In this document: positions 45,001 to 64,000 of the stretch, piece by piece
How the letters are laid out: every line of letters begins with the position of its first letter
Position numbering within the stretch: the first letter of the stretch is position 1
Source of the DNA: Pseudaquabacterium pictum
Lineage (GTDB): Bacteria; Pseudomonadota; Gammaproteobacteria; Burkholderiales; Burkholderiaceae_C
Length of the DNA stretch: 64,000 nucleotides
NCBI RefSeq assembly: GCF_005403045.1
Contig: NZ_BJCL01000003.1
Span: 1 to 64,000 of the forward strand
Reading direction: 5' to 3'
The notes under the pieces: generated by a model
The model's input: only the letters and a program-made list of their open reading frames with translations
Databases searched by the model: none
Told to the model about the DNA's origin: nothing
Made by a program: the position numbers and the translations under genes

Positions 45001-45985
45001 CAAGCAGACCAGCGCGCCGCCTGCCACGCTGGGCACGGCGCCGATCAAGCAGCAGGTGATCCACTTCATCAACAAGAAGCTGCCTGGCGGCCTGCCCAAG
45101 AAGACCGCCCGCGCCCTGCTGGACATCGAGGACCGGGACTACGTGCCCATCATCCGCAACCCGGTGGCCACCACGGCCGAGACCGAGGCGGTGTTCTATT
45201 TCCCCGGTTGCGGCAGTGAGCGCCTGTTCAGCCAGGTGGGCCTGGCCACCCAGGCCATGCTGTGGCATGCCGGCGTGCAGACGGTGCTGCCGCCGGGCTA
45301 CCTGTGCTGCGGCTACCCGCAGCGCGGCAGCGGCCAGTTCGACAAGGCCGAGCAGATCATCACCGACAACCGGGTGCTGTTCCATCGCGTGGCCAACACG
45401 CTGAACTACCTGGACATCAAGACGGTGGTGGTCAGCTGCGGCACCTGCTATGACCAGCTGCAGGGCTACCAGTTCGACAAGATCTTCCCCGGCTGCCGCA
45501 TCATCGACATCCACGAGTACCTGCTGGAGAAGGGCATCACCCTGCCCACCGCCGGCGCCGGCTACTTGTACCACGACCCCTGCCACACGCCGATGAAGCT
45601 GCAGGAGCCGATGAAGACGGTCAAGGCGCTGATGGGCCCGAACGTGCTGAAGAGCGAGCGCTGCTGCGGCGAGAGCGGCACGCTGGGCGTGACCCGGCCC
45701 GACATCAGCACCCAGGTGCGCTTCCGCAAGGAAGAAGAGCTGCGCAAGGACGAGGTGGCACTGCGGGCCACCGGATCAGTGAAGCCCGATGCCAACGTGA
45801 AGATCCTGACCAGCTGCCCCAGCTGCCTGCAGGGCCTGAGCCGCTACCAGGACGACATGCAGAACGGCCTGCTGGAGGCCGACTACATCGTGGTGGAGAT
45901 GGCCCGCAAGATCCTGGGTGAGACCTGGATGGAAGACTACGTCGGCCGGGCGAACGCCGGCGGCATCGAGCGGGTGCTGGTCTAA
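42053..45985 (+). CDS. DUF3683 / FAD-linked oxidase / Fe-S oxidoreductase fusion
   Basis: This is a 1310-residue fusion common in betaproteobacteria. An N-terminal DUF3683 region (about 1-110, [21 protein letters not shown]) precedes an FAD-binding PCMH domain ([17 protein letters not shown] near 220) and the FAD-oxidase C domain ([26 protein letters not shown]). Then come two 4Fe-4S motifs, [11 protein letters not shown] and [12 protein letters not shown], and CCG domains ([20 protein letters not shown]). The layout equals a GlcD-GlcF or Dld fusion, so oxidation of a 2-hydroxy acid (D-lactate or glycolate type) feeding electrons to the respiratory chain is likely but unproven. The ATG at 42053 is the natural start. 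The gene is followed by a repeat that may terminate it. Confidence 0.9.
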
Positions 45986-46075: not shown

Positions 46076-47032
46076 CTAAGTCGATTCGAACCGGCCCAGC
46101 CGCACCACGGTGTTGCCCGGCTTGGCATGGGCGGTGGACGGCATCACCAGCACGCAGTCGTCGTAGGGGCTCCGCCAGACCTGGCCGCTGTCTTCGGCGA
46201 TCGGCGTGCCGGCCTGCGGCACCACGCCCAGGCCCGCGGTGGGCACCAGGAAGCGGAAGCTGCTGCTGCGCGCCACCACCGCCTCGGTCACCCGCACCAG
46301 GCGCTGTTCGGCCGGCAGCGGCAGGCGGGTGCGGGCAGCGGCCCACACCGCATCCACCACGCCGGCCAGGTGCAGGAACCGCACCAGCGTGTCGATGGCC
46401 ACATCGGTGGCGGCGCGCTCCCAGTGCTGGCCGCATTCCACCAGCAGCGCCTTGCGCGGGCTGGCCGGGTCGCCGAAACCGCCGCGCTCCACCATGCGCA
46501 GGCCGGCCGGGTGGCCGGTGTCGATCAGCAGATCGGCCGGCGTGCCCAATTGGCGCGCGTACGCGGCGTGCTTGTCCTGCGTGCCGCAGACCATCAGCGG
46601 CCGGCAGGGCTCGGTCATCGAATGGATGTCGAGCAGCAGGTCGGCGGCATCGACGAAGGGCTGCAGTTCGCGCGCGCGCCGCAGCTCCACCGAATCCCGC
46701 GGGCCGAACAGCACCTCGTCGGCCCACACCCGGTTCAGGTCTTCGTCGACGCAGCGCGACGCATGCGGCGCCGCGGGGTCGAAACGCTCGAACGCGGCCA
46801 CATTGGCAAAGGCCAGCACCAGGCTGCCGCGCAGCGGTGCCAGCGGTTGCTGGAACAGCCATTGCAGCGCGATGGCGCCGCACAGCTCGTTGCCATGGGT
46901 CAGCGCCTGCACCATCACCACCGGGCCAGGGCGGCCCGAATCGATGCGGTGCACGTAGGGCACGCCGGTGTTGCCCGCAGCGAATAGGCGGATGTCAGGG
47001 GCTTGCAACTCGATCGGGGGCAGGGCGGTCAT
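46076..47032 (-). CDS. AstE/aspartoacylase (M14-like) family zinc hydrolase
   Basis: This 318-residue protein of the succinylglutamate desuccinylase/aspartoacylase family comprises zinc amidases that remove an acyl group from an N-acyl amino compound. Zinc ligands appear in ALTHGNELCGA (His, Glu) and LLLDIHSMTE (His). Substrate-site residues are likely in VDEDLNRVW. The C-terminal beta region (RFLVPTAGLGVVPQAGTPIAED) is the lipoyl-like domain of the family. The real acyl substrate is unknown; DoeB of ectoine breakdown is a relative. It is the last of eight same-strand genes beginning at the AEP transporter, 21 bases after the HAD gene. Confidence 0.85.
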   Translation of the reverse strand: MTALPPIELQAPDIRLFAAGNTGVPYVHRIDSGRPGPVVMVQALTHGNELCGAIALQWLFQQPLAPLRGSLVLAFANVAAFERFDPAAPHASRCVDEDLNRVWADEVLFGPRDSVELRRARELQPFVDAADLLLDIHSMTEPCRPLMVCGTQDKHAAYARQLGTPADLLIDTGHPAGLRMVERGGFGDPASPRKALLVECGQHWERAATDVAIDTLVRFLHLAGVVDAVWAAARTRLPLPAEQRLVRVTEAVVARSSSFRFLVPTAGLGVVPQAGTPIAEDSGQVWRSPYDDCVLVMPSTAHAKPGNTVVRLGRFEST

Positions 47033-47053
47033 GCGGCGGTGATCTCTCGGGTC

Positions 47054-47758
47054 TCAGGTGCTGCGGTCCAGCCGCAGCACCGGCCAGCGGCGGGCCTGGG
47101 CCTCGGCCAGCAGGCGGTCGTCGGGGTCGACGACCGTGGGGTGGCCGACGGCCCGCAGCAGCGGCAGATCGTTGGCGGAATCGCTGTAGAAATGGGCGCT
47201 GTCCAGGGCCTGGGCGCGGGCGGCGGCAGCCAGCCCCTGCGCGGCCAGCCAGTCGTGCAGGCGCTGCACCTTGCCCTCGCGCATGTTCAGCATGCCGGTG
47301 GTGCGGCCGGTGTAGGTGCCTTCGTGTCCCGCCGGGCCATCGGCCAGCGCCGCTTCGGTGGCGATCAGGTGCGGGATGTCCAGCGCAGCGGCCGTCAGTT
47401 CGGTGATCACCCGGTTGGTGGCGGTGCTCAGCACCAGGGTGTGGCCGGCCTCGCGGTGGCGGGCCACCAGCGCACGCGATGCCGCCGGGATGCGCGGCAG
47501 TACCACCTGCTGCAGGAAGCGCAACCGCCACGGCGCCCAGAAGGCGGGCGTGCGGCCACCCAGGGTGCCGACATAGAACTGCGAGAAGTCCAGCGGCGAC
47601 ACCGTGCCGCTGCGGTAGTCGGCATCCATGCGGGCATTGAGCGCCAGCCGGTCCGACGGCAGCAGGCCGTTGGCCACCAGGAACTCGCACCACAGCACAT
47701 CGCTGTCGCCGGTCAGCAGCGTGTTGTCGAGGTCGAAGATGGCGAGCGAGGCGGTCAT
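47054..47758 (-). CDS. HAD-superfamily IB phosphatase (SerB-like)
   Basis: This 234-residue HAD phosphatase of subfamily IB has nucleophile and acid D9-x-D11 in FDLDNTLLTGDSD, motif II LSTATNRVI, a Lys in REGKVQRL and motif IV FYSDSANDLPLL. Relatives act on phosphoserine and other small phosphomonoesters. Its start overlaps the eutC stop by four bases, so it is made together with ethanolamine ammonia-lyase; phosphoethanolamine is therefore a reasonable candidate substrate, by context only. The frame runs far upstream as a shadow of eutC, but homology begins at this ATG. Confidence 0.85.
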   Translation of the reverse strand: MTASLAIFDLDNTLLTGDSDVLWCEFLVANGLLPSDRLALNARMDADYRSGTVSPLDFSQFYVGTLGGRTPAFWAPWRLRFLQQVVLPRIPAASRALVARHREAGHTLVLSTATNRVITELTAAALDIPHLIATEAALADGPAGHEGTYTGRTTGMLNMREGKVQRLHDWLAAQGLAAAARAQALDSAHFYSDSANDLPLLRAVGHPTVVDPDDRLLAEAQARRWPVLRLDRST

Positions 47759-48540
47759 GGCGCCGCCCCGGTGGTGCCGAGCAATGCCGTGGCGCTGTCG
47801 TCCTTCAGGCCCACGCCGGTGAGGCGGCGGCGCAGGGCCTCGGTGGCCAGCCAGGCCAGGCGCTGCGCGGCCACCGCGGGCGGAAGGCCGGCGGGCCGGA
47901 TGTTGCTGACGCAGTTGCGCTGGGCATCGTGGCAGCCCACCCGCGGCGCGTGGGTGAGGTAGGCGCCCAGGCTGTCGGGCGAGCTGAGGCCCGGCCGCTC
48001 GCCCAGCAGCACCAGCACCAGCCGGGCCTGCAGCAGCGCGCCGATCTCGTCGCCCAGCGCCACGCGGGCCTGGGTGGCGATGACCGGCGGCGCCAGCGAG
48101 AGCCGGCCGTCCAGCGCGGTGCGCAGGGCCTGCAGCAGCGGCAGCGCATGGCGCTGCAGCGCCACCGCCGACAGGCCGTCGCCCAGCACGATGGCGAGAT
48201 CGACCGGACCGCTGGCCGCGGCCTGCAGTGCATCGGCGCTGTCGGGTGCGAGGCGGCGGCCGAAGTCGGGCCGGCGCAGGTAGACATCCCGGTTGGCCGC
48301 GCGGCTGTGCACCACCGTGGCAGTCCAGCCGTCGGCCAACAGGTCGGCCTGCAGCGCCGGCAGGTCCAGCGCCACATGCACCGCATCCCGCGCCTGGGCA
48401 TGGGCGGCAGCGAAGCGCAGCACCTCGTGCGTGGGCAGGGCGGCGCCGGTGCGGCCCAGGGCGATGCGGGCTGGCGTGTGGCGGCGGAGCTCGGCCCAGG
48501 GGTCGGCCGCCGGCTGCGGCGTGGTGGGCAGCGCGCTCAT
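47755..48540 (-). CDS. eutC: Ethanolamine ammonia-lyase small subunit
   Basis: This 261-residue subunit of the adenosylcobalamin-dependent lyase helps convert ethanolamine to acetaldehyde and ammonia. PWAELRRHTPARIALGRTGAALPTHEVLRFAAAHAQARDAVH, the B12-site region DLAIVLGDGLSAVALQRHA, and GERPGLSSPDSLGAYLTHAPRVGCHDAQRNCVSNIR are all family sequence. It overlaps eutB by ATGA upstream and the HAD gene downstream. No EutA reactivase, EutR regulator or microcompartment shell gene is present. Confidence 0.96.
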   Translation of the reverse strand: MSALPTTPQPAADPWAELRRHTPARIALGRTGAALPTHEVLRFAAAHAQARDAVHVALDLPALQADLLADGWTATVVHSRAANRDVYLRRPDFGRRLAPDSADALQAAASGPVDLAIVLGDGLSAVALQRHALPLLQALRTALDGRLSLAPPVIATQARVALGDEIGALLQARLVLVLLGERPGLSSPDSLGAYLTHAPRVGCHDAQRNCVSNIRPAGLPPAVAAQRLAWLATEALRRRLTGVGLKDDSATALLGTTGAAP

Positions 48541-49937
48541 GCCCGGCCTGCTTCCAGCAGCGGGCTGAAACCCTGGGCCAGCGCGGGCCGGCTGGCGGCG
48601 GGCAGCAGCCTGCCCTGCGCATCGGTCAGGCCCCGGCGCTGCAGCCAGGCCTCGAACTCGGGCGCCCGCTGCAGGCCCAGCAGCTGCCGCACGAACAGCG
48701 CATCATGGAACGAGGTGCTCTGGTAGTTCAGCATCACGTCGTCGGCCCCCGGCACGCCCATCATGAAGTTCAGCCCCGCGGTGGCCAGCAGCACCAGCAG
48801 GTTGTCCATGTCGTCGCTGTCGGCCTCGGCATGGTTGGTGTAGCAGATGTCGCAGCCCATCGGCAGGCCCAGCAGCTTGCCGCAGAAGTGGTCTTCCAGG
48901 CCGGCGCGGATGATCTGCTTGCCGTCGTACAGGTACTCGGGCCCGATGAAGCCGACCACGGTGTTGACCAGCAGCGGCCGGTAGCGCCGGGCCACCGCAT
49001 AGGCGCGGGCCTCCAGCGTCTGCTGGTCGACGCCGTGGTGGGCATTGGCCGACAGCGCGCTGCCCTGGCCGGTCTCGAAATACATCACGTTGTCACCCAG
49101 CGGGCCGCGGCGCAGCGCCAGCGCGGCGGCATGGGCCTCGTCCAGCAGCGCCAGGTTCAGGCCGAAGCTGGTGTTGGTGGCCTCGGTGCCGCCGATGCTC
49201 TGGAACACCAGGTCGACCGGCGCGCCCTGGTCCATCGCCTGCAAGGTGTTGGTGACATGGGTCAGCACGCAGCTCTGGGTGGGCACCTGGTGGGTGTGGA
49301 TCAGGCCGTCCAGCAGGCGCAGCAGGTCGACCAGGGCCGGCACGCTGTCGGCGGCGGGGTTGATGCCGATGACCGCATCACCGGCGCCGTACATCAGGCC
49401 ATCGAGGATGCTGGCGGCGATGCCGGCCGGGCTGTCGGCCGGGTGGTTGGGTTGCAGCCGCACTGCCAGGTGGCCGGGCAGGCCGATGGTGTTGCGGAAC
49501 CGTGTGACCACGTTGACCTTGCGCGCCACCGCGATCAGGTCCTGGTTGCGCATCAGCTTGCTCACCGCGGCCACCATCTCGGGCGTGAGGCCCGGCGCCA
49601 GCGCGGCCAGCACCGGTGTGCTGGCGGCGTCGCTCAGCAACCAATCCCGGAAGCCGCCGACGGTGAGGTGGGCCACCGGCGCGAAGGCCGTGGCGCTGTG
49701 GCTGTCGATGACCAGGCGGGTGACCTCGTCGGCCTCGTAGGGCACCACCGCCTCCTGCAGGAACGTGGCCAGCGGCAGATCGGCCAGGGCCAGGCGGGCG
49801 GCCACGCGCTGGGCGGCACTGTCGGCGGCCACGCCGGCCAGCTCATCGCCCGAGCGCGCAGGCGTGGCCTTGGCCAGCAGCATGGCCAGGCTGTCGAAGT
49901 GGAAGGTCTCGCTGCCGAGACGGGCGCGGTAGGACAT
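48537..49937 (-). CDS. eutB: Ethanolamine ammonia-lyase large subunit
   Basis: This 466-residue catalytic subunit is a TIM barrel that binds ethanolamine and the cobalamin radical. GDAVIGINPAADS, DLVFQSIGGTEATNTSFG, FETGQGSALSANAHHG and MGCDICYTNHAEADSDDMDNLL match EutB closely. The ATG lacks a ribosome site; CACACT on the gene strand ends seven bases before it, so an extra leaderless promoter inside the operon is possible. It lies 32 bases after phnW, which is unusual company for eutBC. Confidence 0.97.
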   Translation of the reverse strand: MSYRARLGSETFHFDSLAMLLAKATPARSGDELAGVAADSAAQRVAARLALADLPLATFLQEAVVPYEADEVTRLVIDSHSATAFAPVAHLTVGGFRDWLLSDAASTPVLAALAPGLTPEMVAAVSKLMRNQDLIAVARKVNVVTRFRNTIGLPGHLAVRLQPNHPADSPAGIAASILDGLMYGAGDAVIGINPAADSVPALVDLLRLLDGLIHTHQVPTQSCVLTHVTNTLQAMDQGAPVDLVFQSIGGTEATNTSFGLNLALLDEAHAAALALRRGPLGDNVMYFETGQGSALSANAHHGVDQQTLEARAYAVARRYRPLLVNTVVGFIGPEYLYDGKQIIRAGLEDHFCGKLLGLPMGCDICYTNHAEADSDDMDNLLVLLATAGLNFMMGVPGADDVMLNYQSTSFHDALFVRQLLGLQRAPEFEAWLQRRGLTDAQGRLLPAASRPALAQGFSPLLEAGRA

Positions 49938-49969
49938 GGACTGCAGTGTGCCGCGTGATCAGGCAGGTG

Positions 49970-51082
49970 TCAGGCCGGCGCGGTGGGAATGCCCATCTCG
50001 CGCAGCGCCTCGCCCACGGCGTTGACGGCCTGCTGCATCTCCAGGCTGCCGATGGCGCCGATGCAGCCCACGCGGAAGGTGTCCACCGTGGTCAGCTTGC
50101 CCGGGTAGAGCATGAAGCCGCGCCGCTTGGCCGCCTGGTAGAAGCGCTGGAAGTCATAGGCCGGATGCGCCGGCGCATGGAAGGTGACGATGATCGGTGC
50201 CTGGTGTTCGGCCTTCAGGAAGGGCTGGAGCCCCAGTTGGCCCATGCCCTCGATCAGCGTGGCGCAGTTGGCGGTGTAGCGCGCCAGCCGTGCGGGCTGG
50301 CCGCCTTCCTCGACGAACTGGGTGATGGCCTCGGCCAGCGCCACCACCACATGGGTGGGCGGGGTGAAGCGCCACTGGCCGGTCTTGGCCATGTACTGGT
50401 GCTGGTCGTGCAGGTCCATCGCCAGGCTCTGGCTGTTGCCGGCGCAGCCGTCCAGCACCGCCTGGCGGATGAACACGAAGCCCATGCCGGGCACGCCCTC
50501 CAGGCACTTGCCGCTGGCGGCGATCAGCGCGTCGAAGCGCACCGTGCGGGCATCGATCGGCAGCGCGGCAAAGCTGCTCATCGCGTCGACGATCAGGCCC
50601 TTGCCATGGCGTTCACACACCGCCGCCACGTCGGCCAGCGGGTTCTCGACACCGGCGCCGGTCTCGCAGTGGATCAGCACCACATGGGTGATGCTGGCAT
50701 CGGTGCGCAGTTGGTCGTCGAGCACCGCGGGCGACACCGGCGCATCCTCGGCGAAGGCCACGGTGCTGACGCGCCGGCCCATCATCTGGGTGAGCTTGCC
50801 GGCGCGCTTGCAGTAGGCGCCGTTGTCCAGCACCAGCACATGGCCGTCGCGCGGCACCACGGTGGCGACCGCCGCCTCCACGCTGAAGGTGCCGCTGCCC
50901 TGCAGGGGCACGACCACATGCGTGCCGTGGCCATGCACGATGTCCAGCAGGCGGCTGCGCACGCCGGCCGTCACTGCATTGAAGTCGGCGTCCCATGAAC
51001 CCCAGTCGTGCAGCATTGCCAGCTTGGTGCGCAGCGTGGTGGTCAGCGGGCCCGGGGTGAGCAGGATGCGGTCGCGGTCCAT
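49970..51082 (-). CDS. phnW: 2-Aminoethylphosphonate-pyruvate transaminase
   Basis: This 370-residue PLP enzyme moves the amino group of 2-aminoethylphosphonate to pyruvate, giving phosphonoacetaldehyde and alanine. [25 protein letters not shown] at the N-terminus, [28 protein letters not shown] and the PLP lysine K192 in [14 protein letters not shown] are PhnW features. The ATG at 51082 follows AGGAGA. It is transcribed with the AEP transporter upstream (22-base gap). PhnY and PhnA on the opposite operon complete the route to acetate and phosphate. Confidence 0.95.
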
Positions 51083-51104
51083 GGTGCAGGTCTCCTTGTC
51101 TTGT

Positions 51105-52892
51105 TCAGGCACGCCATGCCTGGTTTCTTCGATCGACGGCCCAGGCCAGCGCGCTGAACGCCAGCATCGCCAGGCTGCTGGCCACGGTGATCAGCACCGC
51201 GCAGGCCGCGGCAGCGCCCATCTCGCCGGCCTCGTCCAGGTTCAGGATGGCGATGGCCGCCACCTTGGTCTCGGGCGAGTAGAGGAACACCACCGCCGAG
51301 ATGGTGGTCATCGCATTGATGAAGAAGTAGCGGGCGATGTCGATCAGCGCCGGCGTGCAGATCGGCAGCGTCACCCGCCGCAGCGTCACCCAGAACGGCA
51401 CCTTCAGGCTGGCGGACACGGCCTCGAACTCGGCGTCCAGCGCCTTCAGCGCCGTCACCGCCGTCAGGTGGCCGGTGGTGTAGAAGTGGGCGATGGTGCA
51501 GATGGTGAGCAGCGCCATCGTGTGGTACAGCCCGCCCAGCGGGTTGCCCGGCGCGTTGAAGAAGAAGATGCAGCCCAGGCCCAGCACCAGGCCGGGCACG
51601 GCCATCGGCAGCATGGCCAGCAGGCGCACGGCGCTGCGCAGGCCGCCGGCGCCTTGCGTCTTCTCCAGCAGGTAGGCGCCGGCAAACACCAGCGCGGTGC
51701 CGAACACGGCGGTACCGGCGGCCATGGTCAGGCTGTTGACGAAGGCCGTGCCCACCTCGGCATCCACCAGCCCCAGGGTGTAGTGGTTCAGCGTGGGCGC
51801 CAGGTTGTAGGGCCAGAAGCTGGCGAACGAGGCGAACACCGCCATGCCCATCATCGCCAGCACCAGCGCGGCGATGAGTGCGCAGTAGACGGTGGCCAGG
51901 CCGTCGCGCCAGGCCTTCGGGCGTGGTCGGTAGGGCACGGCGCGGGCGGTGAGCAGCGCAGTCTGACGCCCGGCCACCCAGCGGTCGACCGCAAAGGTGA
52001 ACACCGCTGGCGCCAGCAGCAGCAGCGCCACCACCGCGCCCTTCTGAAAATCCTGCTGCCCGATCACCAGCTTGAACACATCGGTGGCCAGCACATTGAA
52101 GTTGCCGCCGATCACCTTGGGGATGCCGAAGTCGGTGATCACCAGGGTGAAGCTGACCAGCGCCGCCGAGATCAGCCCGTACTTGGCGCCCGGCAGGGTG
52201 ATGGTGAAGAAGCGCCGCCAGGGCCGGGTGCCCATGGCGGCGGCGGCCTCGTAGAGCCGGCCGTCGGCCGCGCCCAGCGCGGTGATCAGGATCATCAGCG
52301 CATGCGGAAACACCGCGAAGCACTCGGCCACCACGATGCCCGGCGCGCCGTAGATCTGGTCGATGCCCAGGCGCTGCATCGTCCCCTTGAGCACGCCCTG
52401 GTTGCCGAACCAGTAGATCAGCGAGATGGCCGACAGCAGGCTGGGCGCCAGCAGCGGCAGCAGGGTGATGCCGCGGAACAGCGGCTTGAAGCGCATGCGG
52501 CTGCGCTGCAGCGCATAGGCGAAACCGAAGGCCAGCGGGATGACGATGACCGTGACCAGGGCCGACACCCACAGGCTGTTGGTCAGCGAATCCAGCAGCG
52601 ACGGCGTGCGGGCATAGGCGATGAAGTTGGCCAGGCCGACGAAGCGGCCGCTGGCGTCTTCCAGTGCCTGCTTCAGGATGGCCAGCAGCGGCGCGGCCAG
52701 GAAGGCGAGCAGCAGCACCAGAACCAGGGCCAGCCCGGCATGCGCCACGCGCAACCTGGGATCGACCTGCTGGCGGCATGTCGGCCCCTCGGCTGCCGGG
52801 TACGGCAGCCGATCCCCCGAGGGGATGGCGGGCCGGCTTGGGAGCGGCCCGGCGCTCGGCCCGCCCGCTGCGTCGGGCGCGGTGCTGTTCAA
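51105..52892 (-). CDS. phnU: 2-Aminoethylphosphonate ABC transporter, fused permease
   Basis: This 595-residue protein joins two binding-protein-dependent permease domains, about twelve helices. The first half has [28 protein letters not shown] and the second [29 protein letters not shown], each followed by an EAA-type loop. Fused permeases of this kind form the PhnS2-T2-U2 AEP transporter of Burkholderiales, distinct from the Salmonella PhnSTUV. The start overlaps phnT by ATGA. Residues of about 10-40 are encoded within a palindromic repeat, so this cytoplasmic extension may be an insertion or the real start may be further in. Confidence 0.88.
52789..52865. repeat. Palindromic repeat inside the 5' end of the AEP permease gene
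   Basis: TCGGCTGCCG-GGTA-CGGCAGCCGA is a perfect 10-bp hairpin (52789-52812). It is followed by CCCCCGAGGGG and a second inverted pair GGCGGGCC/GGCCCGCC (52827-52834 with 52858-52865). The style matches intergenic repeats of this bacterial group, but here it is read through in frame as part of the permease N-terminus without a stop. Confidence 0.6.
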
Positions 52893-53953
52893 GCAAACAC
52901 CCGCAGCCGCTCGGGCAGCAGCTTCAGCGGCAGGGTGGAGCCCACCGCCAGCGCCTGCTCCGACAGGAAGTTCAGCGACAGCACCACCTGCAGTGGATGG
53001 CTGCCCAGCGCATCGGCCTGCACCGTCACCAGGCAGTAGGCGCCGAGGAATTCGATGGCCTGGATCTGTGCGCTGAACACATGCGGCTCGCCGGGCGTGA
53101 TGGGCCGGGCCAGCACATCCTCGGGCCGCAGGTAGACGGTGACTTCGCGGCCCGCGGTGCCGGCCAGCATGCCGGGCACGGTGTGCCGGCCGATCTGCAG
53201 CGCACCGCCATCGCCCACCCGCGCCGGCAACGCATTGATCCGGCCGACGAAATCGGCCACGAAGGCGCTGGCCGGCTCGCGGTAGACCTGCAGCGGCGTG
53301 CCCACCTGCTCGATCACGCCGTGGTTCATCACCACGATGCGGTCGGCCACGCTCAGCGCCTCCTCTTGGTCGTGGGTGACCATGATGGTGGTCACGCCGA
53401 GCTGGCGCTGCAGGCGCTTGATCTCCTGGCGCAGCTGCACCCGCACGATGGCGTCCAGTGCCGACAGCGGCTCGTCCAGCAGCAGCAGCCCCGGTGACGT
53501 GGCCAGCGCCCGCGCCAGCGCAATGCGCTGCTGCTGCCCGCCTGAGAGCTGGGCCGGGTACTTGCCCTCGCTGCCCGGCAGGCCCACCAGGGCCACCAAC
53601 TCGCTGACCCGGGCGCGGATCTGGGCCTTGGGTGCCTTGCGGTTGACCAGGCCGTAGGCCACGTTGTCGGCCACGCTGAGGTTGGGGAACAGCGCGTAGG
53701 ACTGGAACACGATGCCGTAGTCGCGCTGGGCCGGCGGCAGGGTGGACACATCGCGCCCGCCCTGGCGGATGCGGCCCGCCGTCTGCCCTTCCAGCCCCGC
53801 GATGATGCGCAGCAGCGTGGTCTTGCCGCAGCCCGACGGCCCCAGGAAGCAGATGAACTCGCCCTGGGGGATCTGCAGATCGATGCCCTTCAGCGCCTGG
53901 AAACTGCCGAACGCCTTGGTGATGCCGTCGAGCTGCAGATAGGGAGCGTCCAT
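52889..53953 (-). CDS. phnT: 2-Aminoethylphosphonate ABC transporter ATP-binding protein
   Basis: This 354-residue ABC ATPase of the putrescine/iron-uptake type has Walker A GPSGCGKTT, Q-loop VFQSYALFPNLSVADNVAYGL, signature LSGGQQQRIALARAL and Walker B LLLDEPLSALD. A C-terminal TOBE region runs from about residue 250. It is placed in the AEP family by its position between the AEP-binding protein and the fused permease. It is 15 bases after phnS and overlaps phnU by four. Confidence 0.9.
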   Translation of the reverse strand: MDAPYLQLDGITKAFGSFQALKGIDLQIPQGEFICFLGPSGCGKTTLLRIIAGLEGQTAGRIRQGGRDVSTLPPAQRDYGIVFQSYALFPNLSVADNVAYGLVNRKAPKAQIRARVSELVALVGLPGSEGKYPAQLSGGQQQRIALARALATSPGLLLLDEPLSALDAIVRVQLRQEIKRLQRQLGVTTIMVTHDQEEALSVADRIVVMNHGVIEQVGTPLQVYREPASAFVADFVGRINALPARVGDGGALQIGRHTVPGMLAGTAGREVTVYLRPEDVLARPITPGEPHVFSAQIQAIEFLGAYCLVTVQADALGSHPLQVVLSLNFLSEQALAVGSTLPLKLLPERLRVFA

Positions 53954-53968
53954 GTCAGGCGCGGCAGC

Positions 53969-55009
53969 TCACTTCTTGGGTTCGCTCTTCGCGTTGTAGC
54001 GCTTGGTCCACTCGGCCAGCACCCGCTCGCGGTTCTCGGCGGCCACGTAGAAGTCCATCTTCACCAGGCGCGATTCATAGTCCTTGGGCACGTTGGCCAG
54101 CGGCGCGGCCACGCCGGGCTGGGCGGTGATGGCGAAGTTCTTGCCGTACAGCAGCATCGCGTCCTTGCTGCTGGCCCAGTCGGCCAGCTTCCTCGCGGCG
54201 TCGAGCTTCTTGGTGCCCTTGTGGATGGCGAAGGCCTCCAGGTCCCAGCCCAGGCCTTCCTTCGGGAACACCAGATCGATCGGCGCGCCCTTGGCCTTGT
54301 TGGCATTGGCGCGGTACTCGAAGCTGATGCCCACCACGTACTCGCCGGCGGCCGCCATGTTGCAGGGCTTGCTGCCGCTGTGGGTGTACTGGCCGATGTT
54401 CTCGTGCAGCCCGTCCATGTACTTCCAGCCACCGCCCTTGCCGTTGTCGTCGCCAAACAGCGTCAGCCAGGCGGTCACGTCGAAGTAGCCGGTGCCCGAG
54501 CTGGCCGGGTTGGGCATCACGATCTGGCCCTTGTAGGCGGGCTTGAGCAGGTCCTTCCAGGTCTCTGGCTTGGGGATGTTCTTCTTGGCCGCTTCCACCG
54601 TGTTGAAGCAGATGGTGGCGCCCCACACGTCCATGCCGAACCAGGCCGGCGGGTTCTTCTTGTCGCGGTACTGCGACATGATGGCGTCCAGGTTGATCGG
54701 CTTGTAGGGCTCGAGCATGCTGTTCTTGTCCAGCAGCGCCAGGCTGCTGGCGGCCACGCCCATCACCGCATCGGCCTGCGGGTTGGCCTTCTCGGCCAGC
54801 AGCTTGGCGGTGATGACGCCGGTGCTGTCGCGCACCCACTTGATGTCGATGTCGGGGTGGACCTTGTTGAAGCCTTCCTGGTAGGCCTTGAGCTGGTCGG
54901 TCTCCAGCGCGGTGTAGACCAGCAGCTGGGTCTTCTGCGCCAGGGCAGGGGCGGCCAGGACGGCCAGCAGGGCAGCACTGGCAAGGGCGAGGCGACGCGG
55001 CAGGGGCAT
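53969..55009 (-). CDS. phnS: 2-Aminoethylphosphonate-binding periplasmic protein
   Basis: This 346-residue solute receptor has a signal peptide (about residues 1-24, LAVLAAPALA) and mature sequence QKTQLLVYTALETDQLKAYQEGFNKVHPDI. Blocks such as WFGMDVWGATICFNT and VMPNPASSGTGYFDV are as in the PhnS2 family. It captures AEP for the PhnT-PhnU transporter. The ATG at 55009 precedes the signal peptide; an upstream extension of 26 codons lacks export character. It is the first gene of the leftward phosphonate operon. Confidence 0.92.
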   Translation of the reverse strand: MPLPRRLALASAALLAVLAAPALAQKTQLLVYTALETDQLKAYQEGFNKVHPDIDIKWVRDSTGVITAKLLAEKANPQADAVMGVAASSLALLDKNSMLEPYKPINLDAIMSQYRDKKNPPAWFGMDVWGATICFNTVEAAKKNIPKPETWKDLLKPAYKGQIVMPNPASSGTGYFDVTAWLTLFGDDNGKGGGWKYMDGLHENIGQYTHSGSKPCNMAAAGEYVVGISFEYRANANKAKGAPIDLVFPKEGLGWDLEAFAIHKGTKKLDAARKLADWASSKDAMLLYGKNFAITAQPGVAAPLANVPKDYESRLVKMDFYVAAENRERVLAEWTKRYNAKSEPKK

Positions 55010-55105
55010 GGATGGTTCTCCAGTGGTCAGGGGGAAGGACACAAACCGCTGAGCTTGTGCCGGCCAGCGTGACACCACGATGACCACGCCGCCCGCGCTG
55101 ATTCA

Positions 55106-55134
55106 TCTTGACTCGGTCGGTGATGTGGTGTCAA
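55106..55134 (-). promoter_or_regulatory. Putative promoter of the leftward phnS operon
   Basis: On the minus strand a perfect TTGACA (-35, plus-strand TGTCAA at 55129-55134) is followed 17-18 bases later by a weak -10 (TCAAGA or CAAGAT). It lies ten bases from the regulator palindrome. Confidence 0.4.
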
Positions 55135-55144
55135 TGTCTTTCGT

Positions 55145-55160
55145 AGATTGTTGACAATCT
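55145..55160. promoter_or_regulatory. Operator-like palindrome in the divergent phosphonate promoter region
   Basis: AGATTGT-TG-ACAATCT is a perfect 7-bp inverted repeat with a two-base centre. FCD-type GntR regulators usually bind short palindromes of the TTGT..ACAA kind. It overlaps the -35 of the regulator gene and lies just upstream of the leftward promoter, so one bound dimer could control both operons. Confidence 0.6.
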
Positions 55161-55179
55161 GCAGTCTGGCGCGTCCAAT
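55151..55179 (+). promoter_or_regulatory. Putative promoter of the rightward phosphonate operon
   Basis: A perfect TTGACA (55151-55156), a 17-base spacer, then TCCAAT (55174-55179). The expected start of transcription falls at the regulator's ATG, which would make the mRNA leaderless. The -35 overlaps the palindrome. Confidence 0.5.
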
Positions 55180-55186
55180 GTGGGGC

Positions 55187-58653
<3,467 letters not shown>

Positions 58654-58660
58654 GAGGCCA

Positions 58661-60331
58661 GTGACCCATCTGCTGAACCTGCTTGCCGCGATTGCCCTGC
58701 TGGTGTGGGGCACGCACATCGTGCGCACCGGCATGCTGCGGGTGTTCGGCGAGAACCTGCGCGGTGTGCTGGCCAAGAGCTTCGGCAGCCGGCCGGCGGC
58801 GCTGCTGGCGGGCCTGGGGGTCACCAGCCTGGTGCAGAGTGCCACCGCCACCTGCCTGATCGTCGCCAGCTTCGTCGGCAAGGGCCTGGTGCCCACCGCG
58901 GCGGCGCTGGCGGTGATGCTGGGCGCCGATGTGGGCACCGCACTGATGGCGGTGGTGTTCTCGTTCGATCTGAGCTGGCTGTCGCCGCTGCTGATCTTCG
59001 TCGGCGTGGTGATGTTCATTGCCCGGCAGGCCAGCGGCGCCGGCCGTGTGGGCCGGGTGCTGATCGGCCTGGGCCTGATCACACTGGCGCTGCAGCTGAT
59101 CGTGGCCGCCACCCGGCCGATGACCGAGAGCCCGGCGGTGCGCGCCCTGCTGGCCGCGCTGCCCAACGAGGTGCTGCTGGACATCGTCGTCGGCGCGGTG
59201 CTCACCGTGCTGTCGTACTCCAGCCTGGCCATCGTGCTGCTGACGGCCACGCTGGCCTCGCAGGGCCTGCTGCCCACCCAGGCGGCGCTGGGCCTGGTGA
59301 TCGGCGCCAACCTGGGCAGCGGCCTGCTGGCCATCATCGCCACCAGTGGCGACAGCCCGCAGGTGCGCCGCCTGCCGCTGGGCAACCTGCTGTTCAAGAC
59401 CATGGGCGCGGTGGTGGCGGTGCCGCTGCTGGGCCAGGTCCATGTGGGGCTGCAGCAGTTCGTGCCCACGGTGGCCGAGCAGGTGGTGGTATTCCACCTG
59501 GGCTTCAACCTGTGCCTGGCGGTTCTGTTCATCGGCCTGACGGGTGTGGTGGCCCGGGTGGTCGAGCGCTGGCTGCCCACGCCGGCCCATGGCGCCGGCG
59601 GCCACCGCACCAGCCACCTGGATCCGGTGGCCCTGGCCACACCCAGCCTGGCCATCAGCTGCGCCGCGCGCGAAGCGCTGCACCAGGCCGATGTGGTGGA
59701 GACCATGCTGCGCGGCGTGCTGCCGGTGCTGCGCGACAACGACCTGGTGCTGGCCGAGCGCCTGCGCCAGATGGACGACACGGTCGACCAGCTCTACAGC
59801 GCCATCAAGTTCTACCTGACGCAGATCTCGCGCGAGGCGCTCAGCGAGCGCGAGAGCCGGCGCTGGACCGACATCGTCAGCTTCACCATCAACATGGAGC
59901 AGATCGGCGACTGCACCGAGCGGGTGCTGATCGACATCGAGGACAAGAAGATCCGCAAGCAGCGCAGCTTCAGCGAGGCCGGCATGGCCGAGGTGGTGCA
60001 CCTGCATGAGCGGCTGCTCAGCAACCTGCGCCTGGGCATGAGCGTGTTCCTCGACGGCCATGTGCGCGATGCGCAGAAGCTGCTGGAGGAGAAGGCCCGC
60101 TTCCGCGACCTGGAGCATGAGTACGCGGCCAACCACATCGCCCGGCTGCAGGACAACACCGCGCAGAGCATCGAGACCAGCTCGCTGCACCTGGACCTGC
60201 TGTCGGAGCTGAAGCGCATCAACAGCCACATCTGCTCCATCGCCTACCCGATCCTGGAGAGCAAGGGCGCGCTGTCGGCCACCCGGCTGCGCGCGTCGCA
60301 GCTGGCCGACCTGGACGACATCCAACCCTGA
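58661..60331 (+). CDS. Na/Pi cotransporter family protein with PhoU-like tail
   Basis: This 556-residue protein of the NptA/YjbB group has two repeated membrane halves, each with the conserved Q-S-A/S motif (SLVQSATATCLIVASF and the GANLGSGLLAI region), over residues 1-310. A helical PhoU-like domain occupies about 335-540 (INMEQIGDCTERVLIDIEDKK). E. coli YjbB of this family exports phosphate when internal levels are high. In this operon it could expel phosphate released from phosphonates. It starts with GTG after TAGGAGG, seven bases behind phnY. Confidence 0.9.
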   Translation: MTHLLNLLAAIALLVWGTHIVRTGMLRVFGENLRGVLAKSFGSRPAALLAGLGVTSLVQSATATCLIVASFVGKGLVPTAAALAVMLGADVGTALMAVVFSFDLSWLSPLLIFVGVVMFIARQASGAGRVGRVLIGLGLITLALQLIVAATRPMTESPAVRALLAALPNEVLLDIVVGAVLTVLSYSSLAIVLLTATLASQGLLPTQAALGLVIGANLGSGLLAIIATSGDSPQVRRLPLGNLLFKTMGAVVAVPLLGQVHVGLQQFVPTVAEQVVVFHLGFNLCLAVLFIGLTGVVARVVERWLPTPAHGAGGHRTSHLDPVALATPSLAISCAAREALHQADVVETMLRGVLPVLRDNDLVLAERLRQMDDTVDQLYSAIKFYLTQISREALSERESRRWTDIVSFTINMEQIGDCTERVLIDIEDKKIRKQRSFSEAGMAEVVHLHERLLSNLRLGMSVFLDGHVRDAQKLLEEKARFRDLEHEYAANHIARLQDNTAQSIETSSLHLDLLSELKRINSHICSIAYPILESKGALSATRLRASQLADLDDIQP

Positions 60332-60340
60332 ACCATCGCC

Positions 60341-60886
60341 ATGCTGCGCATCGACGACATCGAAGCCCTGTTCCTGAACCGGGGCCATGAACAGTACAGC
60401 GGCGAGCCCGTCACCCAGCGGCAGCATGCGCTGCAGTCGGCCACGCTGGCCGAGGCCGACGGCGCCGACGACGAACTGGTGACCGCCGCGCTGCTGCACG
60501 ACCTGGGCCACCTGGTGCAGGACCTGGGTGAAACGCCGACGCTGCGCGGCGTCGACGACCTGCACCAGTTCATCGCCCTCCCGTTCCTGCGTGGTCTGTT
60601 CAGCGACCGGGTGCTGGGCGCCGTGCAGGGCCATGTGGATGCCAAGCGCTGGTTGTGTGCCAAGCGGCCAGGCTACCTGGAAACCCTGTCGGCCGATTCC
60701 CAGCGCAGCCTGGTGCTGCAGGGCGGGGTGTTCGATGCGGCGCAGGCGGCGGCCTTCATCGCGAAGCCCGGTGCCGACGAGGCGGTGCGCCTGCGCCTGT
60801 GGGACGACCAGGCCAAGAGTGCGACCATGGTGACGCCGCCGCTGGCGCACTTCATCCAGCGCGCGCGGCGCTGCGCGCTGGCTTGA
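60341..60886 (+). CDS. HD-domain mixed-valent diiron oxygenase of the PhnZ/TmpB type
   Basis: This 181-residue HD protein belongs to the phosphonate-operon HD family. In PhnZ a mixed-valent diiron centre splits 2-amino-1-hydroxyethylphosphonate to glycine and phosphate with O2; in TmpB the trimethylated analogue gives glycine betaine. Key residues align: Y19 and E22 (QYSGEPVTQ), H29, H53-D54 (LLHDLGH), H75, H98, K102 (GHVDAKRW) and D155 or D156. The usual partner, an alpha-ketoglutarate hydroxylase (PhnY*/TmpA), is not seen in the window. It lies nine bases after the Na/Pi gene and overlaps the DMT gene by four. Confidence 0.88.
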   Translation: MLRIDDIEALFLNRGHEQYSGEPVTQRQHALQSATLAEADGADDELVTAALLHDLGHLVQDLGETPTLRGVDDLHQFIALPFLRGLFSDRVLGAVQGHVDAKRWLCAKRPGYLETLSADSQRSLVLQGGVFDAAQAAAFIAKPGADEAVRLRLWDDQAKSATMVTPPLAHFIQRARRCALA

Positions 60887-61767
60887 CCACCGATCTGGCG
60901 CTGACCTGGCCGGTGGTGCTGGCCGTGTTGTGCGGCGCGGCGCTGCACGCCGGCTGGAACGCCCTGGTCAAGAGCAGCGGCGACAAGCCACTGGACACCG
61001 CCCTGGTGCACCTGATGGGCGCGCTGGTGGCGGTGCCGTTGCTGCTGATCGTCGGCCTGCCCGGGCCGGCCGGGCTGCCTTACATCGCTGCATCGCTGGT
61101 CATCCACATCGGCTACTACATCGCGCTGGCCGGCGCCTACCAGCATGGCGACCTGGGGTTGACCTACCCGATCATGCGCGGCTTCGCGCCGCTGCTGGTG
61201 GCCCTGGGCAGCGGCAGCCTGCTGGGTGAGTCGCCCAGCCCGGCGGCCTGGGCCGGCGTCATCGGCATCACCACCGGCGTGGCCCTGGTCGGGCTGGCCA
61301 AGCCAGGCGAAGCACTGCACCACCGCAAGGCGCTGATGTTCGCGTTTGCCAATGCCGGCATCATCGCCGTCTACACCGTGGTCGATGGCCTGGGGGTGCG
61401 CGCCGAGGTGGCGGCCGGCGGCAGCGCGCTGCGCTATGTGATGCTGCTGTTTGTGCTGGACGGCATCGCCTACCCGCTGCTGGTGTGGCTGCGGCGCGGG
61501 CCGGAAGGCCGTGCCCACATCCTGGCCTATGCCCGCCAGCGCTGGCCGCTGGCGGCGGTGGGCGGCAGCGCCAGCATCGGCAGTTATGCCATCGCACTGT
61601 GGGCCATGACCCGTGCCCCGGTGGCCAGCGTGGCCGCGTTGCGCGAGACCTCCGTGCTGTTTGCCGCGGTGCTGGGCACGGTGCTGCTGAAAGAGGCCTT
61701 CGGCCTGCAGCGTGCCATCGGCACCGCGGTGATCGTGGCTGGTGTGATGGCCTTGCGCCTCGGATGA
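60883..61767 (+). CDS. EamA/DMT-family transporter
   Basis: This 294-residue protein has about ten helices arranged as two EamA repeats (VLAVLCGAALHAGWNALVKSS at the start; VASVAALRETSVLFAAVLGTVLLKEAFG in the second repeat). Such carriers export or import small metabolites such as amino acids. A TTG overlapping the HD gene stop (TTGA) is the best start, since the frame upstream is a shadow. Its position between the HD oxygenase and the flavoprotein suggests transport of a phosphonate-derived compound, but the substrate is unknown. Confidence 0.82.
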   Translation: MTTDLALTWPVVLAVLCGAALHAGWNALVKSSGDKPLDTALVHLMGALVAVPLLLIVGLPGPAGLPYIAASLVIHIGYYIALAGAYQHGDLGLTYPIMRGFAPLLVALGSGSLLGESPSPAAWAGVIGITTGVALVGLAKPGEALHHRKALMFAFANAGIIAVYTVVDGLGVRAEVAAGGSALRYVMLLFVLDGIAYPLLVWLRRGPEGRAHILAYARQRWPLAAVGGSASIGSYAIALWAMTRAPVASVAALRETSVLFAAVLGTVLLKEAFGLQRAIGTAVIVAGVMALRLG

Positions 61768-61780
61768 CGGAGACCTGGCG

Positions 61781-64000
61781 ATGCCCTTGCCCCCCCATGT
61801 GCAAACCCTGATCGTCGGCGGTGGCATTGCCGGCTGTTCCACCGCTTACCACCTCACCCAGCTGGGCCGCCGCGACGTGTTGCTGCTGGAGCAGGGCCGG
61901 CTGACCAGCGGCACCACCTGGCATGCCGCCGGCCTGGTCGGCCAGATGCGGCCCAACCGCAGCATGACCGGCATGAGCCGCTACGGCATCGACTTGTACA
62001 GCCGGCTGGAGGCCGAAACCGGCCTCGCCACCGGCTGGAAGCAGTGCGGCAGCCTCAACGTGGCTCACACGCCCGAGCGCATGCAGCTGCTGCACAAGCA
62101 GGCGGCGCTGGCGCGCAGCTTCGGCGTGGAGGTGCATGTGATCAGCCCGGCCGAGGCGGGCGACAGGTGGCCGCTGATGCGCACCGACGACCTGCAGGGC
62201 GCGCTGTGGATCCCGGGTGACGGCAAGGCCAACCCGACCGACCTGACGATGTCGCTGGCCAAGGGCGCCCGCAACCGGGGCGCGAAGCTGGTGGAAGGCG
62301 TGCAGGTCACCGGCGTGCTGGTCGAGGACGGCCCGTCCGGTCCGCGGGTGGCCGGCGTGCACACGCTGCAGGACGGCGTTCCCGGCGTGGTGCGCTGCGA
62401 GACGCTGATCAACTGCGCCGGCCAGTGGGCGCGGCAGTTCGGCGCGCTGGCCGGCGTCAACGTGCCGCTGTACTCGGCCGAGCACTTCTACCTCGTCACC
62501 GACCGCATCCCCGGCGTGCACCCGATGCTGCCGGTGATGCGCGATCCCGACGGCCTGATCTACTACAAGGAAGAGGTCGGCGGCCTGGTGATGGGCGGCT
62601 TCGAGCTGGCGGCCAAGCCCTGGTCGATCGATCCGATTCCCGCCGACTTCCAGTTCCAGCTGCTCGGCGAAGACTGGGACCAGTTCGAGCCGCTGATGAC
62701 CAACGCCATCCACCGCACGCCTTGCCTGGAGACCGCGCCGATCAAGATGCTGCTCAACGGGCCGGAGAGCTTCACGCCCGACGGCAACTTCATCCTCGGC
62801 GAGGCGCCGGGGCTGCGTGGCTACTTCGTCTGCGCCGGCTTCAACTCGGCCGGCATCGCCAACAGCGGCGGCGCCGGCCAACTGATCGCCGAGTGGGTGG
62901 TCGGCGGCGAAGCACCGCAGGATCTGTGGGAAGTCGACATCCGCCGCTTCGGCGCCTTCACCGGCAACCGCCGCGCGCTGGCCCAGCGCACCGCCGAGAC
63001 CCTGGGCCTGCACTACGCCATGCGCTGGCCGCGGCAGGAACTGCAGAGCGCCCGCCCGCTGCGCACCAGCCCGCTGCATGACCGCCTGGCCGCCCGCGGC
63101 GCCGAATTCGGCAGCAAGAACGGCTGGGAGCGGGCCAATGTCTTCCGCCCCGCCGGGGCGGACAGCCTGCCGCCGCACACCCTGGGCACCCCCGGCTGGC
63201 TGCCCTGGATGCAGGCCGAGCAGCAGGCCACCCGCAGCGCCGTGGCGTTGTACGACCAGACCAGCTTCGGCAAGCTGCTGCTGCAGGGCCGCGATGCGCT
63301 GGCGGTGCTGCAGCGGTTGTGCGCCAACCAGATCGACGTGGCCCCGGGCCGGCTGGTCTACACCGCCATGCTGAATGCCCGCGGCGGCTTCGAGAGCGAT
63401 TGCACCGTGCTGCGCCTGGCGGCCGACCGCTTCCTGCTGATCACCGGCTCGGCCCAGCCGCTGCGCGATGCCGACTGGATCGGCCGCCACCTCGGCGCCG
63501 ACCAGCATGCGGTGCTGACCGATGTGAGCGCGCTGTGGAGCGTGCTGTCGGTCATGGGCCCGAACGCCCGCGCCCTGCTGGCCCGCCTGAGCCCCGACGA
63601 CCTGTCGCCCGCCGCGCTGCCGTGGGGCCACAGCCAGGAGATCGACCTGGGCCTCGCCCGGGTGCGCGCCGCCCGCATGGCCTATGTGGGCGGGCCGGGC
63701 TACGAGCTGTACGTGCCGGTGGAGATGGCCCGCCATGTCGACATCGCGCTGCAGGCCGCCGGCGCCGACCTGGGCCTGCGCGATGCCGGCTACTGGGCGC
63801 TGGATGCCCTGCGCATCGAGGCCGGCCGCCGCGCCTGGGGTGCCGAGATGGGGCCCGATGAGACACCATTCGAGGTCGGGCTGGGCGCCTTCGTCGCGTT
63901 CGACAAGGGTTGTGACTTCATCGGCCGCGATGCGCTGCTGGCGGCCCGCGGGCAGCCGCTTCGCAAGAAGCTGGTCACGGTGGTGCTGGACGATCCGCAG
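61781..64000 (+). CDS. GcvT-type FAD-dependent oxidoreductase (dimethylglycine/sarcosine dehydrogenase-like), 3' end outside window
   Basis: 740 codons are open to the window edge with no stop. The N-terminal half is a DAO-fold flavoprotein: dinucleotide motif VGGGIAGCSTAYHL (12-25) and TTWHAAGLVGQMRP, where H48 matches the histidine that carries covalent FAD in dimethylglycine dehydrogenase. AGFNSAGIANSGGAG closes the FAD site. From about residue 460 a GcvT/aminomethyltransferase-like folate domain follows (TRSAVALYDQTSFGKLLLQGRDA). Such enzymes oxidatively demethylate N-methylated glycines and pass formaldehyde to tetrahydrofolate. The ATG at 61781 is 13 bases after the DMT gene. A role on N-methyl compounds released from phosphonates is an inference. 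Confidence 0.88.
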   Translation, partial: MPLPPHVQTLIVGGGIAGCSTAYHLTQLGRRDVLLLEQGRLTSGTTWHAAGLVGQMRPNRSMTGMSRYGIDLYSRLEAETGLATGWKQCGSLNVAHTPERMQLLHKQAALARSFGVEVHVISPAEAGDRWPLMRTDDLQGALWIPGDGKANPTDLTMSLAKGARNRGAKLVEGVQVTGVLVEDGPSGPRVAGVHTLQDGVPGVVRCETLINCAGQWARQFGALAGVNVPLYSAEHFYLVTDRIPGVHPMLPVMRDPDGLIYYKEEVGGLVMGGFELAAKPWSIDPIPADFQFQLLGEDWDQFEPLMTNAIHRTPCLETAPIKMLLNGPESFTPDGNFILGEAPGLRGYFVCAGFNSAGIANSGGAGQLIAEWVVGGEAPQDLWEVDIRRFGAFTGNRRALAQRTAETLGLHYAMRWPRQELQSARPLRTSPLHDRLAARGAEFGSKNGWERANVFRPAGADSLPPHTLGTPGWLPWMQAEQQATRSAVALYDQTSFGKLLLQGRDALAVLQRLCANQIDVAPGRLVYTAMLNARGGFESDCTVLRLAADRFLLITGSAQPLRDADWIGRHLGADQHAVLTDVSALWSVLSVMGPNARALLARLSPDDLSPAALPWGHSQEIDLGLARVRAARMAYVGGPGYELYVPVEMARHVDIALQAAGADLGLRDAGYWALDALRIEAGRRAWGAEMGPDETPFEVGLGAFVAFDKGCDFIGRDALLAARGQPLRKKLVTVVLDDPQ

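Follow-up and report, generated by a model that had tools for sequence, protein, structure and literature searches.

An aminoethylphosphonate regulon of Burkholderiales with exchangeable ethanolamine-type modules and a HAD-IB phosphatase clade: a proposed branch for phosphoethanolamine

The closest described counterparts of the locus considered here are the phnWAY (phnWYA) clusters for hydrolytic degradation of 2-aminoethylphosphonate (AEP), which come with a PhnSTU-type transporter and the regulator PhnR. Positions 46076-64219 of contig NZ_BJCL01000003.1 from Pseudaquabacterium pictum, all of which except the last 219 bases fall in the window (the whole stretch of 64,000 nucleotides that was analyzed), hold a cluster that matches these systems in PhnS2, PhnT2, PhnU2, PhnW, PhnA, PhnY, PhnR_burk, and Phn-HD, and the joint presence of the PhnW, PhnA, and PhnY equivalogs identifies it by gene content as a phnWAY cluster (scores in Table 1). 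It differs from them in adding eutB, eutC, and a gene for a HAD-IB phosphatase; the DUF6 model is matched below its cutoff. Stand-alone eutBC genes with an ethanolamine permease are found in the same bacterial family and share their EutB family with the window, whose genome (6.1 Mb), unlike those, has neither such a permease (at E 1e-90) nor a second eutB. Four accessory enzymes of AEP clusters, PbfA, PbfB, PbfC, and PbfD, likewise let the AEP pathway accept more substrates. In contrast to PbfD, the flavoprotein of the window carries a GcvT domain, and the compound that the HAD protein and EutBC would bring in is a phosphate ester rather than a phosphonate. A further point of comparison is the gamma-glutamyl ethanolamine operon of Phaeobacter sp. 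MED193, which, according to the accessible parts of its description, encodes ETAGA, GETADH, GAADDH, and GGAH and is accompanied by an ethanolamine transporter of the TRAP type (PMC10132767). Text searches, mostly outside the subscription literature, retrieved no description of an AEP operon that includes eutBC, the gamma-glutamyl route, or a HAD-IB phosphatase. Term searches of the available portions of four papers on phnWAY clusters (PMC8154272, PMC12366243, PMC10574752, and PMC10590968) likewise retrieved no ethanolamine catabolic genes, and in those of PMC8154272 ethanolamine is mentioned solely as one of the compounds tested or as part of enzyme names.

Sequence and neighborhood comparisons suggest that this block probably forms a single two-branched regulon under PhnR control that serves 2-aminoethyl phosphorus compounds. 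In the branch already known, PhnSTU would import AEP, and PhnW, PhnY, and PhnA would convert it to alanine, acetate, and phosphate. Phosphoethanolamine is the oxygen analog of AEP: where AEP has carbon bound directly to phosphorus, it has an oxygen between the two. In the second branch, it would enter intact, presumably through PhnSTU, and be stripped of its phosphate in the cytoplasm by the HAD protein; EutBC, with adenosylcobalamin, would then turn the ethanolamine into acetaldehyde and ammonia. A gamma-glutamyl-type module would stand in for EutBC in many related regulons, the Na/Pi protein might export the surplus phosphate, and the HD-domain oxygenase and flavoprotein could open the pathway to relatives that are hydroxylated or N-methylated. 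We lean, with some caution, toward the wider view that this is a recurrent and hitherto undescribed aminoethyl-phosphorus regulon of Burkholderiales, in which AEP and phosphoethanolamine share a single regulator and a single transporter, the phosphate is removed inside the cell by a new, Pho-independent HAD family, and the EutBC and gamma-glutamyl routes are interchangeable. If so, a C-P compound and a C-O-P compound would be handled as one nutrient class under a common regulon. As phosphoethanolamine is the headgroup of common membrane lipids, the block would salvage that headgroup, and it would offer a concrete candidate for a question found in the accessible text of PMC10132767, namely, whether intact headgroups are imported and then dephosphorylated inside the cell or unidentified Pho-independent phosphatases act on them.

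Gene order and recurrence of eutBC in phn regulons

The first-pass annotation of this DNA had read the block as 15 genes in two divergent arms. When gene identities were scored against curated NCBIfam cutoffs and Pfam domains, all 15 were recovered in the order proposed: phnS-T-U-W-eutB-eutC-HAD-AstE on the leftward arm (eight genes) and phnR-A-Y-Na/Pi-HD-DMT-flavoprotein on the rightward one (seven genes). Twelve pass an NCBIfam cutoff (PhnS2, PhnT2, PhnU2, PhnW, EutB, EutC, PhnR_burk, PhnA, PhnY, Na/Pi, Phn-HD, and HAD), the adjacent EutB and EutC each scoring above that of its own family; the DMT protein, AstE, and the flavoprotein pass none. Spacing is tight on both arms. Leftward, where no gap exceeds 32 bases, PhnS and PhnT are 15 bases apart, PhnT and PhnU overlap by 4, PhnU and PhnW overlap by 8 at the listed start (or lie 22 apart if the in-frame ATG of MDRDRIL is used), PhnW and EutB are separated by 32, EutB and EutC overlap by 4, EutC and HAD overlap by 4 with the HAD start ATG over the eutC stop, and HAD and AstE are 21 apart. 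The rightward arm has overlaps of 8, 8, and 4 bases and gaps of 7, 9, and 13.

EutB was sampled in 250 genomes of the family and 399 of the order (6 EutB genomes being common to both draws) and was present in 72 and 66 of these, respectively. Neighborhoods of up to 20 kb around 60 family EutB genes were laid out by tblastn; counts throughout come from tblastn or genome searches, and gene layouts follow a best-of-six-frames rule, which missed EutB in four loci. The majority of these 60 eutBC loci have no phn genes nearby. The phnSTUW-eutBC-HAD order is nevertheless repeated in two other genomes, G171 and that of contig JAGOPK010000002.1, which excludes a chance association; the order is thus not a peculiarity of one genome, an outcome that the annotation had named as fatal to its proposal. 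Of its larger unit, eutBC-HAD-AstE beside phnSTUW, these two genomes repeat eutBC-HAD, and AstE finds no support as a member. In G171, the HAD gene is followed by a TIGR03364 flavoprotein (annotated as PbfD1), and AstE has no match. A different arrangement is seen in two genomes of another genus (G075 and G180), with phnSTUW on one arm and phnR, the DMT gene, eutB, and eutC on the other. The EutB tree places this pair and the window-type EutB in separate starred groups, which is most simply explained by two or more entries of eutBC into phn regulons. Three EutB sequences are of the window type, and they are unresolved inside one 12-row group that also contains EutB from outside phn loci.

These observations bear on two alternatives. 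The first is that eutBC-HAD-AstE is a passenger that landed beside phnW without any functional link. This would suit the presence of EutB at just 4 of 75 PhnU2 loci and its absence within 20 kb of PhnU2 in all 12 genomes of the order outside the family that have both above cutoff (the distance is about 65 kb in two of them), and AstE itself does resemble a passenger. The same arrangement in two further genomes, the different G075/G180 layout, and the occurrence of another ethanolamine-type module at 25 PhnU2 loci (see below) make it very improbable as an account of the whole unit. The second alternative, which we regard as remote, makes EutBC a B12-dependent counterpart of PbfA with a hydroxylated aminophosphonate as its substrate. 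Such a compound, 1-hydroxy-2-aminoethylphosphonate, can be viewed as an ethanolamine bearing a substituent, and PbfA is its known accessory lyase in the accessible text of PMC8154272. Against this, EutB and EutC are ordinary members of their families above cutoff, the phn-linked EutB sequences form no supported clade of their own, and the module exchanged with EutBC resembles an ethanolamine route.

Apart from these loci, in members of two bacterial families (G119, L088:9032-17618; G626, L097:5106-11824), a distant PhnSTU-like transporter (PhnS and PhnU at 38 to 40% identity) and a DeoR/GlpR-type regulator are followed by eutBC, in G119 also with an ethanolamine permease; these genes may represent a further system for taking up a phospho-ethanolamine compound.

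Exchange between EutBC and a gamma-glutamyl-type module

Searches with PhnU2 at E 1e-100 retrieved 75 of the 250 family genomes, of which 71 score above cutoff and hold 75 loci. Within 20 kb on the same contig, these loci have the HAD clade in 23 cases, an iron alcohol dehydrogenase in 25, and EutB in 4, and EutB and the dehydrogenase are never found together (0/75); as contigs break, these counts are lower bounds. The dehydrogenase belongs to a gamma-glutamyl-type module that further comprises a glutamine-synthetase-like enzyme, an aldehyde dehydrogenase, and a C26 hydrolase-like protein. Wherever retrieved, the module is placed after phnW, often with a HAD-clade gene at its end, and in five loci (G011, G143, L120, L130, and L132) the order is phnSTUW-synthetase-dehydrogenase-hydrolase-aldehyde dehydrogenase-HAD. 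By family, these are the same four enzyme types as PMC10132767 gives for the Phaeobacter operon; in the relatives, the module sits inside the AEP regulon, and in the window EutBC is there instead. In G101 (L200:7706-10892), phnW, a synthetase-like gene, and HAD are in direct succession, and the dehydrogenase is on another contig.

Counted by genome, EutB and the dehydrogenase co-occur in 2 of the 75 PhnU2 genomes (G039 and G205), with 13.5 expected from the margins (Fisher test, 1.6e-8). One or the other is found in all 29 genomes with HAD versus 33 of the 46 without it (Fisher test, 0.0011), both tests ignoring shared ancestry across 55 genera. EutBC is the rarer of the two interchangeable ethanolamine modules, and since EutB is found at 4 of the PhnU2 loci against 25 for the gamma-glutamyl-type dehydrogenase, we give eutBC alone less weight as the novelty than the exchange. 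The window's own genome has no match to the dehydrogenase at E 1e-80. The GcvT flavoprotein, in turn, was detected at E 1e-250 in 27 of the 75 genomes; in 20 of them it lies no more than 20 kb from PhnU2. The dehydrogenase accompanies it in 26 of those 27 genomes, the window being the exception, which might be expected if EutBC had taken the place of a gamma-glutamyl module in the window's lineage.

The HAD-IB clade and its proposed substrate

The HAD protein scores above the HAD-IB cutoff with its sequence motifs intact, and we take the conserved motif residues to be catalytic. The HAD-IB enzymes known to hydrolyze histidinol phosphate and phosphoserine have 2-aminoalkyl phosphates as their substrates. 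The nearest solved relative, matched over nearly the whole length (E 1.1e-67), is an uncharacterized protein (PDB 3fvv) whose listing names no function; phosphoserine phosphatases come next and match only profile positions 87-211. Among the 72 EutB genomes, 67 have some match to the HAD protein. Seven matches are at 53 to 100% identity and the others at 45% or less; we term the latter housekeeping-type, a label drawn from this identity spread. The window genome has one of each kind, the common-type paralog being at C13:35156. In the 46 PhnU2 genomes without EutB, 23 have a clade member at E 1e-45, and a 24th (G109, L210), cut by a contig end, is visible in tblastn only.

Several lines of evidence set this clade apart. 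In a scan of named genomes, among the matches listed (80 loci), all 15 loci with a HAD at 53% identity or more have phn, ethanolamine-module, or Ugp-phosphoesterase genes beside it (one of them, L124, being the G143 contig again), versus 3 of the 65 loci below 53% (L135, L164, and L177). In the tree, 28 context rows split from 20 housekeeping-type rows plus L177 with a support of 98/91. L164 sits on a long branch, and the tree did not include the paralog from the window's own genome. Fourteen alignment positions are specific to the clade (27 clade rows versus 62 others), among them N157 and M158 (first Met uncounted) directly before a conserved REGK motif. Of 30 clade members, 23 are near PhnU2. 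The clade thus recurs beside either of two unrelated ethanolamine routes or the AEP transporter, which favors the first-pass suggestion that the HAD protein may dephosphorylate phosphoethanolamine and EutBC then act on the product, and a clade whose nearest model is a histidinol-phosphatase would thereby gain a testable substrate. Outside the main clade, a more distant HAD (41%) directly follows phnW (62%) on a betaproteobacterial contig from Baikal (L177:639-2449).

Some of the data weigh against this reading. The nearest profile of the HAD protein is the histidinol-phosphatase equivalog NF052360 (213.2 bits; 241.5 for the HAD of L116; cutoff, 280). G075 and G180 carry eutBC in the regulon and have no HAD-clade gene in the genome, and EutB and PhnU2 lie apart in the 12 genomes from outside the family noted above. 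None of the three markers (HAD, dehydrogenase, and EutB) lies within 20 kb at 42 of the 75 PhnU2 loci, and HAD was not found near 8 of the 25 dehydrogenase loci, one of which (G109) does have it, cut off by the contig end. All four enzymes of the gamma-glutamyl-type module score below their equivalog cutoffs and are likened to the Phaeobacter enzymes by family type alone, so that ethanolamine as the module's substrate is tentative. In five loci, the order is phnSTU-HAD-pbfD-phnX with phnR opposite and no adjacent ethanolamine genes (G162, G175, and G022, in which eutB is elsewhere in the genome, and L122 and L123, from Acidovorax soli and Acidovorax sp. CF316). Finally, the ethanolamine permease is also missing from 40 of the 67 EutB genomes without eutBC in a phn or Ugp cluster, and according to the accessible text of PMC8316502 AepX was tested on phosphonates only.

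A reading that accommodates part of this is co-regulation without a phosphoethanolamine step, in which ethanolamine and AEP arrive together from lipid debris and the HAD protein acts elsewhere, e.g., on histidinol phosphate. The histidinol-phosphatase profile, the two regulons with eutBC and without HAD, and an ethanolamine-permease-like gene in the regulon of two relatives would fit it. We nonetheless consider it unlikely, given that the HAD score is under the histidinol-phosphatase cutoff, that a separate common-type paralog exists in the same genome, and that the clade forms a separate branch of the tree, has residues specific to it, and tracks ethanolamine-module genes.

The HAD protein could alternatively act on glycerol 3-phosphate or another glycerophosphodiester product, with the regulon salvaging glycerophosphoethanolamine. 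In G105, eutB-eutC-HAD adjoin a calcineurin-type phosphoesterase and a Ugp-type transporter, genes that also adjoin the HAD of Lampropedia aestuarii, and both HAD proteins group with that of the window. This alternative seems to us improbable, as neither that phosphoesterase nor UgpB gave a tblastn match in the examined phn loci and the commonest partners of the clade are ethanolamine-module enzymes; phosphoethanolamine is the substrate that we prefer. The L. aestuarii locus itself (L131:4863-10642), where the Ugp-type transporter stands opposite the phosphoesterase and HAD and eutBC has no match, is possibly a glycerophosphoethanolamine cluster. The phnSTU-HAD-pbfD loci also prompted the idea of HAD as a substitute for the phosphonatase PhnX. 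It was rejected because PhnX or PhnX-type genes follow pbfD at those loci: a true PhnX in L093 (344 bits; cutoff, 220) and PhnX-type genes in L094, L095, L122, and L123.

Regulation, uptake, and the remaining genes

The features of the locus are collected in Table 1. The palindrome between phnS and phnR is absent elsewhere in the phn locus by exact genome search, and the genome has just one further exact ATTGTNGACAAT site, at C7:37754. Palindromes of the type TTGTNNACAA are present in 18 of 27 phnS-phnR intergenic rows, with about 0.4 expected in all; two of these rows (L116 and L203) are one locus, and the window's own palindrome was found by the exact search instead. A looser form, searched for in 40001-64000, is also seen at 43290, inside the convergent gene, and at 56851, inside phnA, and is not found before eutB. 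The listed open reading frame of phnR starts at 55148, and the in-frame ATG used in Table 1 lies downstream of the palindrome. This distribution, together with the tight gene spacing, suggests that PhnR would control eutBC-HAD along with phnS, in keeping with the single regulon that had been proposed at the outset. The C7:37754 site (L222:8554-10975), a possible further PhnR target, is between genes for a weakly PhnS-like binding protein (67 bits; cutoff, 395) and an ABC ATPase-like protein, and another gene that reads as GntR-like is near it.

TABLE 1 Features of the phn-eutBC-HAD locus (contig positions)
Feature	Coordinates	Strand	Evidence
AstE/aspartoacylase-fold hydrolase, last leftward gene	46076..47032	-	Pfam AstE_AspA_cat, 54.7 bits
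HAD-IB phosphatase, proposed phosphoethanolamine phosphatase	47054..47758	-	TIGR01490, 109.5 bits (cutoff, 98.3)
eutC, ethanolamine ammonia-lyase small subunit	47755..48540	-	NF003971, 323.7 bits (cutoff, 230)
eutB, ethanolamine ammonia-lyase large subunit	48537..49937	-	NF011649, 714.3 bits (cutoff, 554)
phnW, 2-aminoethylphosphonate-pyruvate transaminase	49970..51112	-	NF010006, 564 bits (cutoff, 296)
phnU, fused double permease (PhnU2)	51105..52892	-	TIGR03262, 786.8 bits (cutoff, 593)
phnT, ABC ATPase (PhnT2)	52889..53953	-	TIGR03265, 499.1 bits (cutoff, 458)
phnS, substrate-binding protein (PhnS2)	53969..55009	-	TIGR03261, 499.4 bits (cutoff, 393)
Palindrome ATTGTTGACAAT, proposed PhnR operator of divergent promoters	55147..55158	.	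Exact genome search; kindred palindromes in relatives
phnR, GntR/FCD regulator	55187..56020	+	TIGR03338, 305.7 bits (cutoff, 271.5)
phnA, phosphonoacetate hydrolase	56013..57224	+	TIGR02335, 600.7 bits (cutoff, 408)
phnY, phosphonoacetaldehyde dehydrogenase	57217..58653	+	TIGR03250, 847.8 bits (cutoff, 636)
Na/Pi cotransporter with PhoU domain, possibly phosphate exporter	58661..60331	+	TIGR00704, 250.6 bits (cutoff, 210); PF02690, PF01895
HD-domain oxygenase of phosphonate operons	60341..60886	+	TIGR03276, 229.9 bits (cutoff, 214.6)
EamA-type membrane protein of phosphonate operons (DMT)	60883..61767	+	TIGR03340, 228.7 bits (below cutoff, 288); PF00892
FAD oxidoreductase with GcvT folate domain	61781..64000, on to 64219 of contig	+	PF01266, PF01571

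The ethanolamine permease TIGR00908 is present in 27 of the 72 EutB genomes, and by its coordinates it directly adjoins eutB in 26 of these 27. All five genomes whose eutBC genes belong to a phn or Ugp cluster (that of the window, G171, G075, G180, and G105) lack it. This is a weak sign that ethanolamine is made inside the cell, and it says little because 45 of the 72 EutB genomes are without the permease. The permease-like protein of the two relatives mentioned above (L206 and L208) is 36% identical to the ethanolamine permease, is encoded between phnW and the synthetase, and scores 358.6 bits in L206 (below the cutoff of 381.75). As for the transporter proper, the AEP-binding proteins in the accessible text of PMC10574752 were tested on phosphonates, and import of phosphoethanolamine by PhnSTU is here a prediction. 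In G082 (L211:2090-6025 and 14205-16186), phnA, phnY, DMT, and flavoprotein genes occupy the roughly 8 kb that separate phnSTU (55 to 58% identity) from phnR-phnW. No phnSTU adjoins phnW, and the transporter there seems to have been exchanged or moved.

On the rightward arm, the HD-domain oxygenase belongs to a named phosphonate-operon family and the GcvT flavoprotein recurs beside phn genes, which agrees in part with the first-pass view that both may handle N-methylated aminoethylphosphonates, a role that is conjectural for the flavoprotein. The flavoprotein scores 52.4 bits against the PbfD model TIGR03364, below the cutoff of 285. The presence of the Na/Pi gene agrees with the phosphate export during growth on AEP as a nitrogen source that is reported in the accessible part of PMC8316502.

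AstE, which had been proposed as an N-deacylase of the pathway, finds no support in that role. It scores 32.8 bits against the aspartoacylase equivalog NF002601 (cutoff, 180) and has orthologs at 61 to 71% identity in 18 other genomes of the 250, none of them within 20 kb of PhnU2 on the same contig, a few of these contigs being short. Of 15 AstE loci that were fetched, 12 have metW and metX in the neighborhood, the MetW and MetX families being named from one example. With its orthologs away from PhnU2 and mostly near metW/metX, AstE is unlikely to be a member of the pathway and is probably a lineage-specific neighbor. An ancestral neighbor of AstE was sought in the gene at 41999-45985, which was without a match of at least 35% identity in any of the 15 loci (L100 to L114). 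This large gene, by reading of an FAD and Fe-S D-lactate-dehydrogenase type, is convergent with the leftward operon, and 90 bases separate its end from that of AstE.

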